The notes under the pieces are model-generated. The model saw only the letters and a program-made list of their open reading frames with translations. It had not been told where the DNA came from and ran no database searches. Both the position numbers and the translations under genes were made by a program. Of a stretch of DNA of 64,000 nt, positions 26,326 through 39,774 are shown piece by piece. The stretch is from positions 3,617,744-3,681,743 of the forward strand of contig MU004230.1 in the NCBI GenBank assembly GCA_010405405.1, given 5' to 3'. Numbering within the stretch: position 1 is the stretch's first letter; each line of letters opens with the position of its first letter. The stretch comes from Microthyrium microscopicum. Taxonomy: Eukaryota; Ascomycota; Dothideomycetes; Microthyriales; Microthyriaceae.

Positions 26326-26385
26326 ATCATCTCAGCCTTGTCGACGTCGCCTCGCGCAAGGCGACGTTGATAAGGCTGAAATGAT
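26326..26385. repeat. Imperfect inverted repeat at the start of the exon-fragment array
   Basis: Arms 26326-26352 and 26359-26385 are complementary with a few mismatches around a 6-base loop (CGCGCA). The right arm is the sequence that precedes the repeated exon in the parent gene (coding AQGDVDKAEM at 33 kb), so the left arm is a head-to-head copy of it. Confidence 0.75.
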
Positions 26386-27480
26386 TATCAACGAACAAGA
26401 GATCTCCATGACTACCCCCACCAGCTTCCAACTCCATGTTCTATCGACTGTCAAGTCCAAGAGTTTGTTCACACCGCAATTAGATGGATTCGAAGCTTCA
26501 TCAACGAACAAGAGATCTCCATGACCACCCCCACCAGCTTCCAACTCTGTGTTCTATCGACTGTCAAGTCCAAGAGTTTGTTCACACCGCAATTAGATGG
26601 ATTCGAGGCTTCATCATCGAACAAGAGATCTCCATGACCACCCCCACCAGCTTCCAACTCCGTGTTCTCTCGACTGTCAAGTCTAAGAGCCTGTTTACGC
26701 CCGCAATCAGAANNNNNNNNNNCGAACAAGAGATCTCCATGACCACCCCCACCAGCTTCCAACTCCGTGTTCTCTCGACTGTCAAGTCTAAGAGCCTGTT
26801 TACGCCCGCAATCAGAAGAGCCTGTTCCACGCCGCAATTGAATGGATTCGATGATCATCACCAAACAAGAGATCTCCATGACCACCCCTACCAGCTTCCA
26901 ACTCCGTGTTCTCTCGACTGTCAAGTCTAAGAGCCTGTTTACGCCCGCAATTAGAAGAGCCTGTTCCACGCCGCAATTGAATGGATTCGATGATCATCAC
27001 CGAACAAGAGATCTCCATGACCACCCCCACCAGCTTCCAACTCCGTGTTCTCTCGACTGTCAAGTCTAAGAGCCTGTTCACGCCCGCAATTAGAAGAGCC
27101 TGTTCGCGCCGCAATTAGGTGGATTCGAGACTTCTTCGTTCTTGGTACGTTACTCTCTCTAGTAACAGGCCGTAATCTGATGCTAACGATAGTTAGGAAG
27201 CCAAACCAAAAAGCCAGCCTCTCATCCAAATCGACATCCCGCCTGTACGTTCTCTTAGTAAGTCTTTTCTCCACGCCAAAACACTATGTTATTGTTCTTC
27301 CGCTGACGAAGTTCAGGAGAATACTGAGCCAAATATCAAGCCTTCTGCCAAAATCAACATCCCACCTGTTCATGCGACCAAAGTTTCTACCACAATTGTC
27401 AACCAACCTGTTAAAATACTGGATCAGGATTGGACCTTTTTGCCAAATCAGCATCCCGCTTCTTTATACCACTTACATTC
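26359..27480 (+). pseudogene. Pseudogene array of tandem exon-2 and exon-3 fragments of a DUF3712-like gene
   Basis: Six visible copies of an exon-2 fragment (coding EQEISMTTPTSFQLRVL, then STVKSKSLFTP) start at about 26393, 26506, 26619, 26724, 26863 and 27002. The spacing is 113 bp at first and 139 bp later. Neither is a multiple of three, so no single protein can run through them. After the last copy comes a normal-looking 50-nt intron (about 27145-27194, GTACGT...GCTAAC...TTAG). Then follow two or three fragments of exon 3: KSQPLIQIDIPPV-like, TEPNIKPSAKINIPPVHA at about 27317, and a weaker third at about 27450. The parent copy is the intact gene at 30631-33198 on the other strand, where the same words occur once. 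The copy lacks the membrane anchor and everything after exon 3. It holds an assembly gap. Confidence 0.8.
26713..26722. other. Assembly gap (10 N)
   Basis: Ten N inside the tandem exon-fragment array. The true copy number here is unknown. Confidence 0.99.
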
Positions 27481-29520: not shown

Positions 29521-30630
29521 ATAACCGGTCAATCTTGAAGGTCAAAAATACGTGGGACACGTGCAAACTTGAAACGGACTGCTCAGGCTGTGAACAGAAG
29601 CTTTTTTGTAGCCATCAAGAGCTTAAGCTATTTGTTTATTGCTTACAGCAAATGTGGATCATGAGACGGAACACGGCCAAGAGATGGCTACCAAAATCAA
29701 GATGTTATCGGTTATGGTCGGGGAGTACTGGCGCTGGGTTTGCGCAATATTTCACAACAAAGAGCAGAATCACGTTTGGTTAGGCGAGCAGATAGGAAAG
29801 AAGCGAGATAGAAGATGGACGATGAATTTGGCAAGGACTGTTCTCGATTTCCCTGTTCACATTTCCGATTTCAAGGTCTTTTCGTCCCAAATTAAACCAG
29901 CTGGTTCTTCACCATGACGCCAAATCGACTGACGTAAATATCTTGATGGCATGCGCCAGGGCGATAATGATATTTTGCAAATCGTGTGTTAATGACGCAA
30001 GAATCTGACCTAATGGTTGTCAATGGCTGTAGGCCTGGTCTGCATGTTCAGTGTGTGTTCACTGTTGACCTAGAAGTGAGTGTATGAGACCCAATTTTAC
30101 AGCTTTTATACGATTTGATTTTGCATTATTCAACCCTGCCCGGTTTCTACTTTCTAGAGATCCATTAAGATATGAACCCGTGGACGATAGACGATAATGA
30201 AACGTCAAGTGTAAAATTCCAGGTGTCTCACAACTACACCATTAATAACCAATAGGTGCCATAAAAATAGTAGGCAGTAAAGAGGATGAAAGACAAGAAA
30301 CAGATATCATAATCCCCAAGGCAACCCCAACTCCCTCGAGACCCATCTACCTGAAAATCTGTTAGTATAAGATTACATTATCGCGGCTGCTCTGACAAAA
30401 CCATGTGATCTTCGGGGTAAGATCACTTGGCGTGCTTTGGAAATCATCTAATGCTTTGCGAACCACCACATACCATCGCACTACCTTTGGTAATCATAAT
30501 ACTCAGGAGATTCTGAGGTCTCTTGTTGAATCTGATCAACTACGATGGTAGCCATGGAATGCGATGGGAACCAGCAGATGTGATGGCAATTTCCACCGAA
30601 AGGGGTGAAGGTCCTGTGTGAGGGATTATC
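29521..30630. other. Intergenic region
   Basis: About 1.1 kb. 29535-29917 has two open but unrecognised frames that may be leftover of the Zn2Cys6 relic. At about 30551-30572 a GCCATGGAATGCGATGGGAA stretch resembles the repeat core found in the introns of the next gene. Nothing else seen. Confidence 0.4.
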
Positions 30631-33198
30631 TTACCGGCTTCGTCGCATATTCATGCCGGCCATGTCTCCGGCTGCGGACGAGGAGGGTTTGGCTGCAGCT
30701 GCGGAAGAGGCCTCAGGAGCGGCAGTTGCAGATGAAGATGCGCTTGATGAGGAAGAGCTGCTGGAGCCAGAATCGACACCACCGCCGGTGCCGCTTCCAG
30801 AATCACCAAACAGAGAGCTGAGCCCTATCGCGGTCAACGGGGCCTTGAGATCGAGGTTGAGATTGACTGGGGCAGCAGCCTGAAATATGTTAATATAAGT
30901 TCTCAAAGAGTGTCATTGCATAACATGATGGAGGAGGCTAAATCATGTTCTTGCAAGAAATGTATAGAGCACTCTAATAGCCATCGAACGCGAAAAAAGC
31001 CATCGAGTGCGAAAAAGGCCATCGAGTGCGAAAAAAGCCATCGAGTGCGAAAAGAGCCATCGAGTGCTTTGGGGATTACAAGATGTCGCCAAGCATTATG
31101 ATATAGTGCAGGAAATTCTTACCATCGCAGCCTCGAAGTACGGCAGATGTTGACCGGCCTTGTTCGTCACGGAAATCGTTTTGGCTGTGATTGGGAGAAT
31201 GCCGCTCTTGGTCTTGTCGGCAGAAAGGATAGTGATAACAGCGGCTTGGTCGGAGCTGGACGCCATTTCGAAGTAGTTCTTGCCTAAACATTGTCAGTAT
31301 GAAATCGCGATTTTCAAATCAATATCGATCGAAATTCATTCATCTGTTTGTGGCAAAACCCCATGACACTTTATGGCTCCCATCGCACGCGATGGGAGCC
31401 ATTGAGTGCTGCAGAGAAATTTCGCCAAACCAGGCCAGTTGGACTTTTTGAAGAAATGAACGAATCCATGGAGACCGTCACATCAAATGAGGGCCCCAGT
31501 ATGCGATCAGCAATGTAGTAGTTGGCTGCCATCCAATGGGATGTCCGCCACCAGATATCGTGGTCGGTATCAGATGCGATGGAAAAATTGGGGGTTGGCA
31601 TAGGAGCATCTTACCTGGCCTGAGAACGACATTGTTGATAGTAGTGTTGCCGATAGGGGTGCCGTTGGAAGAAATATCTTGAACAAGGTCGCCAATTTCA
31701 AGGGTCATCACGCTAGGATTGGGGATCATGATCCTGCCTTGCATGTTGCTGCCGTCGGGGAACTTTGTGAGGGAAACGTTGATATTGGAAACCTCGATTC
31801 CAGAAAGTTTGTTCAGACCATCCAACTCAGGAGCCTTGTTGAAGTCGACGGTTGTAACTGGCAAAGCACCTAAAATTGGTCAGAATCAGATTACAATCAG
31901 AGCTGACACGCCTGAAACGACCAAATGGTCTCTTTGTGGTGAAATCGTGAAGCTGCCATCGCATTCGGTGGGAGCCACAGCATTCGGTGGGAGCCACAGC
32001 GCTCGATCGGAATTTATTTGCATGGGAAAATCTTACCTAGGTGCAACTTTGTTCTTCCTCGAAGTCCCATACGGAAGTGCTTGGCAGTAGCCACCAGGAT
32101 ATTGTATCTCTTGAATTGTTCCTGGTCAAGGATTTCAACATGTTGATTAACAATTGTGGTAGATACTTTGGTCGCATGAACAGGCGGGATATTGATTTTG
32201 GCGAAGGGCTTGATGTTAGGCTCAGTGTCTTCCTGAAAGCTGTTAGTGTACTATTTTTGAAAACTTATTGGATGATAGCCATCGAATGCCATGGCAGTCA
32301 TCGAATGCCATGACAGCCATCAAATGCCATAACAGCCATCGAATGCCATAACACCCATCGAATGCCATAACACCCATCGAATGCCATAACACCCATCGAA
32401 TGCCATAACACCCATCGAATGCCATAACACCCATCGAATGCCATAACACCCATCGAATGCCATAACACCCATCGAATGCCATAACACCCATCGAATGCCA
32501 TAACACCCATCGAATGTCATGACAGCCATCGGATGCCACGACAATCACCCCGTGTCGTTGGAGGCAGTTGAAGGCATAGACTTGACGATTGGGGGTCTTA
32601 CCAGGAACAGTGAAGCCTCGAACCCATCTAATTGCGGCGTGAATAGACTCTTTGACTTGACTGTGGAAAGGACTCGAAGTTGGAAGCTAGTAGGGGTGGT
32701 CATGGAGACCTCTTGCTCGTTTATGATCATTTCAGCCTTGTCGACATCGCCTTGGGCGATTCTTGGTAGGCCAACGTAGGTTCTAATATCTGGTCAACCA
32801 TAATTCTCGTTTCTCCGCTCTTAGCATTCGCAATACATGTGATTTCAGAAACACAGGATTTTGCTAGAGCTCACCGTTTAATCAGAGCCGCACCAGACAC
32901 CATGTAGACACTGTGGGGACTGCAACTCTCGGTCAAACACCATCCCGGGTTGTACTCTCACCGTGTCCTGGAATCGAGAACTTTCGGACGAGTAAAATAT
33001 AAAAACTTACAAGAGTAATGAGAGTAGCAGAGTGCCGATGACGAAGTTGAGTAGGTGTGCCCACCAATACTTCCTAAAGTGCTGTTTGAATTTGCTCTGT
33101 TGTGGGACCGCCCTGGTTTGAGTGTTGGCGGTGTTGTCATTATATTCGACGGTTTGTGGTTTATACCCTTTGTTATCATTGTAGCCTGGTTCTGCCAT
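30631..33198 (-). CDS. Membrane-anchored DUF3712-like protein with repeat-inflated introns
   Basis: Exons 33198-33011, 32782-32602, 32232-32037, 31869-31615, 31283-31123 and 30879-30631 (409 aa). A short basic cytoplasmic N-terminus precedes one membrane segment at about residues 50-68 (LLNFVIGTLLLSLLLTYVGL). A long extracytoplasmic part follows, with KINIPPVHATKVST, then SNINVSLTKFP, then IPNPSVMTLEIGDLV, then NGTPIGNTTINNVVLRPG. This is the beta-rich pattern of fungal DUF3712 proteins, related to LEA-2 folds and of unknown function. The last exon codes a Ser/Ala-rich tail ending MNMRRSR. All splice junctions keep frame. Introns are 228, 369, 167, 331 and 243 nt, far longer than elsewhere in the window; introns 2-5 carry 19-bp-type repeats. 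A broken, amplified paralogue lies at 26.4-27.5 kb. Confidence 0.85.
30981..31070 (+). repeat. 19-bp tandem repeat in intron 5
   Basis: Units start at 30981, 31000, 31019, 31038 and 31057, exactly 19 bp apart: CCATCGAGTGCGAAAAAAG with small changes. The 11-base core CCATCGARTGC is shared with intron 2; the other eight bases differ. Confidence 0.95.
31373..31402. repeat. Perfect 14-bp palindrome in intron 4
   Basis: ATGGCTCCCATCGC and its exact complement, separated by two bases. Each arm resembles the repeat core of the neighbouring introns (CCATCG...), placed here head to head. Confidence 0.92.
31961..32010 (+). repeat. 19-bp tandem repeat in intron 3
   Basis: GCATTCGGTGGGAGCCACA twice (31961, 31980) and a degenerate third at 31999. 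The core is the CCATCGAATGC core in opposite orientation with one change. Confidence 0.88.
32279..32545 (+). repeat. 19-bp minisatellite, about 14 units, in intron 2
   Basis: Consensus CATCGAATGCCATAACACC, period 19 from 32280. Units 1-3 and the last two are diverged; the middle ones are identical. All three minus-strand frames stay open through it, which gives false repeat proteins. Confidence 0.97.
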
Positions 33199-37598: not shown

Positions 37599-39774
37599 TG
37601 TTGGGTGAGTGGGTGGTGCTTGGCCAGGCTGGATTGGGGGAGATGGATATTGTGAGTTTTGGGAGATGTTTTTTGATGTTTCGATATTGGGGATTGGGGA
37701 GTTTGCCGAGGTAGGTCGGTTTATGCATGGTGGGCAATGTGCATTTGCATCCAGGGTTCGGCTGTACTCTACTCTTAGGTTGTGCTAAGATAGCTCTTGA
37801 TTCTCACTTGAAAATTGACTTGGAGAACATATTTACAGGCATTTTTTTGGTGGTCGACATCTTCTTAGTGGTTTTGGAAACAATGTCATTGTGCCTCTGA
37901 AGTTGATTTCGCATATCAATATGGGGAGATGTCAATAGAATACCCATTGACGATAACTAGTACTACTACATCTATATAGAGAATAGATAAGTTTCACGAG
38001 AGTCAAAGTAACTGAACATCTTTCATTCCCTATCGGAATGTTAGGTTATCGTTGGACATAGTAGACTAAACGAGGACCAAGTCGTACCAAACCAGCCCCT
38101 TCTTGGGTTTTTCGAGCCGACACTTATGATTTTGAGATCGATTAAAGAGATACCTAGAAGAATATCAAGTAACTTTTCTTTTAATCGTGTTCCTTCCTCG
38201 TGCTTACGAAATACTTAAAATTGTTTGTCGTCAAAATGTCGATTGCTTCGTGGCGTCAAACGAAGCGACTCGTTTATGGGCAGTCTTTTAGATGACCTAT
38301 AATCCGCGCATATCAACTACGATGTCTATCCATCTACCACATATTTCCATGAAATAGATGTTATTTAACTCAACTCACTCCAGTATCAAATTGAACAAAG
38401 CAGTAAGGCTACTCCACCCAGAAATGCACGAGTCCAATCAAGCTATCGCCCAAAAGGGTTGTGTGGACCCCTTGACCCCTGGATATCAGTTTGGCAAATC
38501 AGCAGTCAGAGGAGCTTTGAACATGCATCAAAAAGCTCCGGACCGTCCAGCAACCAGGAAGGTCAAATTTCTTTCTTCGCGGCAGACGGGTAGGTGCGAT
38601 CCAGCTAGTTTGGTTATGCTTTTTGCATCATGGTTCAGTAGTTTGGAGCGCGGAGTTCTACGACCTTGTGCATTGGTGCTGGGAATATAATATCTAGAGA
38701 TTCTCAACAGATAGACGTTTGGGTCATATATTCAGTACTGGGGGGAGTTCCAGCTCAAATCTTTCGACCCCTAGTACCTTTTAGGATGAACGCTTAATCT
38801 TCCGAAGAGCCGTGCGGTGACTGCGAACGGGTGGGTGATTGTGTATGTCGTGTCTATTGGACGCTTTTGATATGTATAGTTGTCAAACCTCGAAAAGGGA
38901 TATGCATGACGAAGACTAAGAACCTGGATATCTGCGCATTGCTGAAGGCTTTTGTCGGCGTTGCACTGGCTACTGGAGGTACAGGTGCATCTGTGGGTTG
39001 CAAAATGATAATTTCGCGCATACTACTGGATGCTTGACGAACCAATCCAGCGAGTTGAGCCGCAAGAAAATGCATCGAGTTTACTCCAGAGTATGAGTGG
39101 ATGATTCTGATAGATCCACGTAGACGTCGTGTCGACCAATCGACGGGATGAAATGGCGCGTTCTCATAACTAAGGCTTCTCCCATCGCACTGCCTAAAGG
39201 AAATTTACTTTGATTCTCAGCGCATTCAATAGGGAGTGGAACAATGTAGGCATCCAATAGGAAATAAAGCATTTGGTCCTAGAAGGTAGCAGATGGTAGA
39301 CAGCGCACTTGATGGGAGGGCGCGATTATTCTGTTGACAACTTGACGGGTTGTGGTGAAGATGGTGGCTTTTATTAAAATGGAATGGACGCCAATAGTGT
39401 CGAGGTTGCTCTTCCCCTTTGTGACACTCACAATGTCCAAGTCTTCAACCTGCACCTTTCCTGTCTCAATCTCTCCACTGTCCCACCACAAATCTTCTCG
39501 ATAAAACTATCATCCAAAAGCATATCCTGGCTTAACCTCATGCAATCCTGGCTTCCTGGCGCTACTCCCTGTGCATCCCCTTGCATGTTGTTGCTTGCTT
39601 GTTGCTTGCTACCCAAGGATTACCAGATCACCCTAAGGCCCAGACAGGTACAGTAAACAAGCGAGCAAACTCGATCCCGAAATTCAATACCAGTCCCAGT
39701 CTGTAGACAATACAGCCGACTCGGGCAATTTACAGCGTAACTTTGTTTCAACTGTCCACTACTTGCAAGCCGCC
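37599..39774. promoter_or_regulatory. Long divergent intergenic region, 2.2 kb
   Basis: Separates the starts of the APH-type gene and the CAP-Gly gene. Open frames are short, without recognisable protein sequence. A hairpin-like GTCGATTGCTTCGTGGCGTC...AACGAAGCGAC lies near 38237-38270. The last few hundred bases are probably the leader of the CAP-Gly gene. Confidence 0.4.

Follow-up and report, generated by a model that had tools for sequence, protein, structure and literature searches.

The origin of new introns is an old open question. The closest described parallels to the introns reported here are the introner-like elements (ILEs) of Dothideomycetes. In the sections of PMC4457414 available to us these are spliceosomal introns carrying both splice sites, which have multiplied into unrelated genes, decay towards ordinary introns, and are gained near positions that hold ordinary introns elsewhere; internal symmetry or a stable structure is described for them in the available part of PMC8469720. 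The family reported here resembles them in its spread through unrelated genes with both splice sites, in its decay and in its internal symmetry, and may do so in its sites of gain. It differs in having no near-identical copies among those seen and a variable number of 19-bp modules in its stem, with arrays of up to ~14 modules, a 134-bp block repeat and a copy lying antisense inside another intron. The sister stwintrons and cropped sister introns of Hypoxylaceae and Xylariaceae (available sections of PMC8469720 and PMC12403724) are likewise sequence-similar, propagating introns with internal symmetry; they too hold a short palindrome and have inverted repeats near their ends. Stwintrons are nested, whereas the present introns are single and canonical, and the palindrome described there is WTTCTAGAAA, in contrast to the CCATCG..CGATGG of the central stem here. 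Introners described as non-autonomous DNA transposons (Gozashti 2022, PMC9860276) also form families of similar introns dispersed within one genome, but the present family is distinguished by a strong central palindrome with tandem modules. Among introners, those of ascomycetes stand out as exceptions, and how they are copied is not settled (PMC9860276).

The window is the whole 64-kb stretch of DNA analysed here (C1:3617744-3681743). It is part of a genome, judged fungal by the genes it carries and the style of its introns, that totals 36.9 Mb over 20 contigs. Its minus strand carries a gene for a DUF3712 protein of 409 aa (30635..33198), with exons modelled from the reading frame at 33198-33011, 32782-32602, 32232-32037, 31869-31615, 31283-31123 and 30879-30635. 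The spliced translation is open once introns A to D are taken out, and the product matches PF12505 (Pfam, E 9.6e-32) over residues 131-251, a match that runs over junction B at residue 188. The introns are assigned from the sequence and its reading frame, and we infer that they are spliced from the RNA. All lie on the minus strand. Introns A to D, numbered 2 to 5 in the first-pass annotation, comprise A (32233..32601, 369 nt, phase 0, GTAAGACC...GCTTTCAG, the frame being kept on removal), B (31870..32036, 167 nt, phase 1), C (31284..31614, 331 nt, phase 1) and D (30880..31122, 243 nt, phase 0). Their lengths of 167-369 nt compare with 52 and 59 nt for the two introns of a neighbouring paralogous fragment; intron 1 of the host gene (33010-32783 in the gene model) is also long, 228 nt, and has no match to the ILE profile described below. 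The first-pass annotation had noted related repeats in four introns. These repeats were confirmed, and a fifth ILE-derived element, E (30351..30634, minus strand, 284 nt, GT...AG), was identified from the profile and its junction letters. Element E starts within the stop codon of the host gene, whose frame would end in CGG TAA if unspliced and in CGG TAG if spliced.

Tandem-repeat detection located 19-bp arrays in the window introns, as had been proposed from the sequence: 13.7 modules in intron A (32279..32538), 4.7 modules in intron D (30979..31067) and, in intron B (31961..32000), a right-arm module of the ILE standing 2.1 times in a row, which the ILE profile supports as well. All are on the minus strand. 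The palindrome reported earlier in intron C is present (31375..31400, without assigned strand), and is larger than the size given for it, consisting of two perfect 12-bp arms around 2 nt, GGCTCCCATCGC-AC-GCGATGGGAGCC. With up to 2 mismatches, the core CCATCGARTGC has 53 matches in the window, compared with a mean of 24.8 and a maximum of 35 in 100 shuffles. Across the genome the exact core occurs at 350 sites (18 for the reversed pattern) and exact core pairs at 19-bp spacing occur 28 times (none in the reversed control), an enrichment over the whole genome; 11 of these pairs make up two of the window arrays and the other 17 are at 13 other places. The 16-bp palindrome CCATCGMRYKCGATGG was found 91 times in the genome and not at all when reversed.

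Searching with a 191-nt intron from C1:235521, with 40 of the 66 candidates scored, produced 51 matches. The 41 non-self matches with E < 1e-11 show 78-90% identity and centre on a common 72-bp stem, and conservation extends outward from this stem as far as a GTAAGATTTCCCCGTG-like donor and a CTGACAAATTCCAG-like acceptor. An ILE profile of 225 positions was built from 18 aligned introns, those of the window being excluded, and the window introns match it nonetheless. Judged by these matches, intron B appears strong, C, D and E clear, and A weak. Intron B, probably the best-preserved ILE of the host gene, matches profile positions 107-225 at 31986-31870 (E 6.2e-24), with a donor piece (1-20 at 32036-32017) reaching only E 4.7. 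Intron C matches in two pieces (1-174 at 31614-31434, E 5.5e-07; 115-225 at 31402-31284, E 5.3e-07), suggesting that it is ILE-derived and possibly two fused ILEs. Intron D matches positions 1-85 at 31122-31036 (E 6.2e-08), its acceptor side (126-225 at 30992-30880) reaching only E 0.17, and element E matches 59-222 at 30576-30355 (E 7.6e-08). The match of intron A is weak (1-150 at 32601-32475, E 0.0083, plus stem pieces); it appears to be ILE-derived through its stem modules, with ends that match weakly. Profile position 1 lies at the donor G in A, C and D and, with E 4.7 only, in B; position 225 lies at the acceptor G in B and C and, with E 0.17 only, in D. The ILE ends coincide with donor and acceptor, though more weakly at both ends of A, for the donor of B and for the acceptor of D. 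Away from these introns and element E, the best match in the 64-kb window was E 0.1 (39164-39191), and in the reversed window E 6.8.

The similarity is also seen with the palindrome left out. A model of the 5' flank without it gave E values in the window of 2e-4 for D, 0.022 for C and 0.33 for B, and one of the 3' flank gave 1.4e-13 for B, 0.0027 for E and 1.2 for C, with E >= 2.6 in the remaining window and E >= 2.1 in the reversed window. Intron A matched neither flank-only model. Genome-wide, a 25-base 5'-flank pattern without the palindrome had 15 matches at up to 3 mismatches, and none when reversed.

Elsewhere in the genome, introns that are similar from donor to acceptor lie in unrelated genes, as seen in a sample of 74 loci (L009-L083 minus L044) that holds 25 distinct full-length ILE copies. 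GT/GC...AG ends are present in 24 of these 25, a figure that is partly circular because the profile contains those letters. Exact removal of the ILE restores reading frames: the shorter arm of the joined open frame averages 52 codons, compared with 26 and 25 when the cut is shifted by 1 or 2 nt, and reaches at least 30 codons in 18 of 24 cases, compared with 9/24 for either shift. Exact removal was strictly best in 14 of the 24, tied in 3 and not best in 7, the last including three tandem pairs with the partner retained (L056, L072 and L077). Ten joined products, an author-chosen subset of the 24, were scanned with Pfam, and in seven a domain runs across the junction (kinase, GH18, ADH_zinc_N, FHA, MFS, NadN and AA_permease); among the other three, P450 begins at the junction in one and two have no Pfam family. 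A codon-bias classifier for the flanking coding strand called 47 of 53 places noncoding on both sides, contradicting the Pfam results, and recognised only 48 of 500 random real 120-mers as coding; it was discarded on both grounds. A second region rich in ILEs was seen at L078 (C3, ~1,080 kb), where seven ILE pieces lie within 3 kb on one strand, in a transporter-like gene and its surroundings. Reversed sequence of 30 loci, L078 among them, gave no ILE matches. Since the loci were selected as ILE holders, such clustering is not a genome-wide rate.

Pairwise identity among the 18 seed introns is 77% at best, with a median of 61%, and no near-identical copies were found among them. The available text of PMC4457414 also counts less similar families as ILEs, as in Dothistroma, so that low identity points to an old family and does not exclude it from the ILEs; as far as can be seen from its sequences, the present family would fit as an old one. 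Its size can be estimated roughly from a right-arm stem pattern that, at up to 3 mismatches, has 76 matches in the genome and none when reversed, the 76 including both arms of one element in some cases (C1:235607/235566, C3:295998/295957 and C3:296116/296157). The same pattern finds only 5 of 36 known elements, made up of 4/31 extra elements in the loci (one of these four, L074, possibly through its neighbour) and 1/5 in the window. The ILE is therefore likely to have several hundred copies at as many places in the genome, as a rough estimate.

We regard introns A to D and element E as, very probably, degenerate copies of a single introner-like element with a modular, array-forming stem. A spliceosomal intron of ~225 nt, carrying its own donor, branch point and acceptor, would have multiplied as a unit, its middle formed by a 72-bp palindromic stem in which 19-bp modules are joined. 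Cores that recur almost unchanged every 19 bp would then be open to tandem duplication by slippage or unequal exchange, and a stem prone to such duplication would account for module numbers from 2 to ~14 and for arrays with uniform interiors and ILE-like edges. The arrays most likely have no host function, the ILE being a selfish and now decayed family.

The number of modules varies among copies. A stem module consists of the 16-bp palindrome CCATCGnnnnCGATGG plus 3 nt, making 19 bp. Among 62 stem rows, some of which are the same place read on both strands, those of 38, 57 and 76 nt correspond to two, three and four modules, and the common row of 73 nt is a four-module row short of a single 3-nt spacer. 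The scheme suits two other rows, 77 and 84 nt long, less well. Since the ILE stem itself consists of 19-bp modules, the period of the arrays is probably inherited from it. An ILE fragment at L085 (profile 85-190) has the right-arm unit TCGAGTGCTGTGGCCACCA three times in succession. The kinase gene at L010 has a full-length ILE and, in a different intron of 232 nt (986-1217), a 19-bp array of 9.4 copies; removal of the array intron joins the frame, and its profile match is confined to the stem part. One plus-strand ILE of 484 nt (L049:1311-1794) contains a 134-bp block repeated 2.6 times, a second level of growth; the three stems inside it have 3, 3 and 4 modules.

The spacers of the two longer window arrays point the same way. 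In array A, the first unit has 3 mismatches to the spacer of the ILE left arm and the last three have 3, 2 and 2; of the remaining units, one has 4 and nine inner, mutually uniform units have 5. A random 8-mer lies within 3 mismatches of that spacer with a frequency of 0.028. In array D the last unit has 3 mismatches and the others 5-6. An edge-to-centre gradient such as that of array A is expected from repeated duplication of inner units, and if a separate mutated copy was the starting point of each array, a constant core with a variable spacer would follow. The first-pass annotation had held that this combination is not what simple slippage gives, which is probably mistaken: the ILE stem supplies both the period and the core, and growth resembles tandem duplication of one module, as indicated by the in-place repetition at L085 and the gradient within 32279-32538. 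Its observation that the spacers of introns A and D differ stands, but unrelated origins are not required, as the edge units are ILE-stem-like. It had also suggested a small self-propagating repeat that lands in introns; this comes close, but it would be the intron in full, splice sites included, that was copied, with the repeat as its stem.

No report of module-array growth in ILEs was found in the literature on introners, the coverage of which was partial, so that absence from print is not established; a literature search with six DNA words of stem and flank returned no paper. Relative to the part of the ILE literature covered, the modular stem, the arrays of up to ~14 modules and the block repetition are new. 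The modular palindromic stem offers a tractable signature, because the number of its units can be compared across copies and strains, and the host gene would illustrate both the spread of introns and the birth of tandem repeats inside them.

Clues to the copying mechanism come from several loci. At L018/L062 an ILE (profile 7-218) lies antisense within a 314-nt intron, removal of which joins a transporter-like frame. Two ILE pairs on the minus strand (L056:1446-1860 and L082:1448-1881) are arranged head to tail with an AG|GT junction, leaving a zero-length exon. Antisense and back-to-back copies bear on whether insertion is at the DNA or the RNA level, and the antisense copy fits DNA-level insertion better than reverse splicing, although one instance cannot settle the matter. 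Pairing of the donor heptamer (>=6/7, G-U allowed) is possible within the final 45 nt of 20 of the 24 copies, compared with 9 of the 24 when an internal stretch of the same length is taken, a likeness to the near-terminal inverted repeats of the Xylariales stwintrons (PMC12403724). No TSDs were evident by eye in the 12-nt flanks of 24 copies, and the only terminal inverted repetition seen was a near-terminal complementarity of 6-7 bp. Ascomycete introner families are described as having neither TSDs nor TIRs (PMC9860276).

An alternative that we consider unlikely, and that survives best, takes the 19-bp palindromic module as the primary mobile or self-amplifying unit, entering introns, intergenic DNA and ILEs, with the ILE as a mere carrier. 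It draws on a sample from contig 1, which holds the first 30 of the 350 core sites; these merge into 19 separate places. ILE sequence extends to both ends at 3 of the 19 and on one flank at 5 (two of these weak, at 12 and 18 bits, and one, L021, a satellite-like array); 4 have the palindrome alone and 7 no ILE match. With 11 of the 19 lacking an ILE flank, the module also exists outside recognisable ILEs, and arrays without ILE flanks occur at L084 (five copies, with ILE similarity limited to module matches), L019 and in the 47-bp array of L029. Against a module that moves by itself, conservation among copies spans donor to acceptor, well beyond the palindrome, and the position of the stem is constant in aligned full-length copies. 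The palindrome-only places may be ILE remnants with decayed flanks, and the module outside ILEs may represent such remnants or an independent repeat. A more specific form of the proposal, equally doubtful in our view, is that the module is a propagating DNA unit, its hairpin-prone replication giving rise to stems, arrays and satellites, and that ILEs are stems captured between splice sites. If true, growth inside ILEs, the outside arrays, the AG|GT pairs and the antisense ILE would be products of one DNA-level process and not of reverse splicing.

The satellite-like array at L021:1365-2302 has units of 118-121 bp with related palindromes and contains an N stretch. Stem matches at C7:1013127-1013427 are spaced 135 bp apart. 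The 47-bp tandem array with the palindromic module at L029:1481-1668 lies just past the apparent stop codon of the upstream gene.

Far less probable is a selected array of protein-binding sites, kept in the introns of the host gene for splicing, chromatin or transcription, as the palindromic 16-bp module and the constant core with varying spacer might suggest. The exact core sites are spread over the genome, including introns of unrelated genes, and spacing and core are already present in the ILE stem. Compensatory change among copies, a possible trace of selection on the stem, was looked for and not found: for a long hairpin 79.9% of cells are paired, compared with 79.7% in shuffles (209 of 500 as high), for two local hairpins 86.6% compared with 87.1% (451 of 500), and RNAalifold returned a weak alternative structure only. 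As there is no compensatory change beyond chance, no selection on stem structure is claimed. Self-complementarity of the module leads to the prediction of a single long RNA hairpin for the array of intron A, the predicted fold of this intron being markedly stable (-153 kcal/mol, z -6.25, 0 of 100 shuffles equally stable), and the hairpin is a possible Dicer substrate. The fold of intron B is not unusually stable (z +0.93), and that of L068 is mildly so (z -1.94, 8 of 200 shuffles equally stable). By growth of its stem, a mobile intron would turn into a minisatellite with the potential for a long hairpin in the RNA.

The weakest proposal is that the introns are old and of the ordinary kind, and that slippage produced a separate, unrelated minisatellite in each, the core being shared by chance or composition. 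It can appeal to the ordinary introns of 52 and 59 nt at position A in the paralogous fragment, which imply that an intron there can predate the array, but is barely credible given core and palindrome counts far above the reversed controls and the homology that the flanks of B, C, D and E show when the palindrome is left out. The same occupancy of position A bears on intron A by itself, which may be an old intron with acquired modules or a case of parallel gain, as reported for ILEs at ordinary intron positions in the available sections of PMC4457414; we think that an ILE is its more probable origin than an old intron into which modules came. A distant paralogue (23% identity) is stop-free across residues 101-294, which cover positions A, B and C. 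The neighbouring paralogous fragment lies inverted at 26348-27430 of the window (plus strand) and is broken, with 82-85% DNA identity to the DUF3712 gene in pieces. Besides its two introns it includes a short N run and an exon-2 piece that is tandemly repeated several times, in units of 113 and 139 bp.
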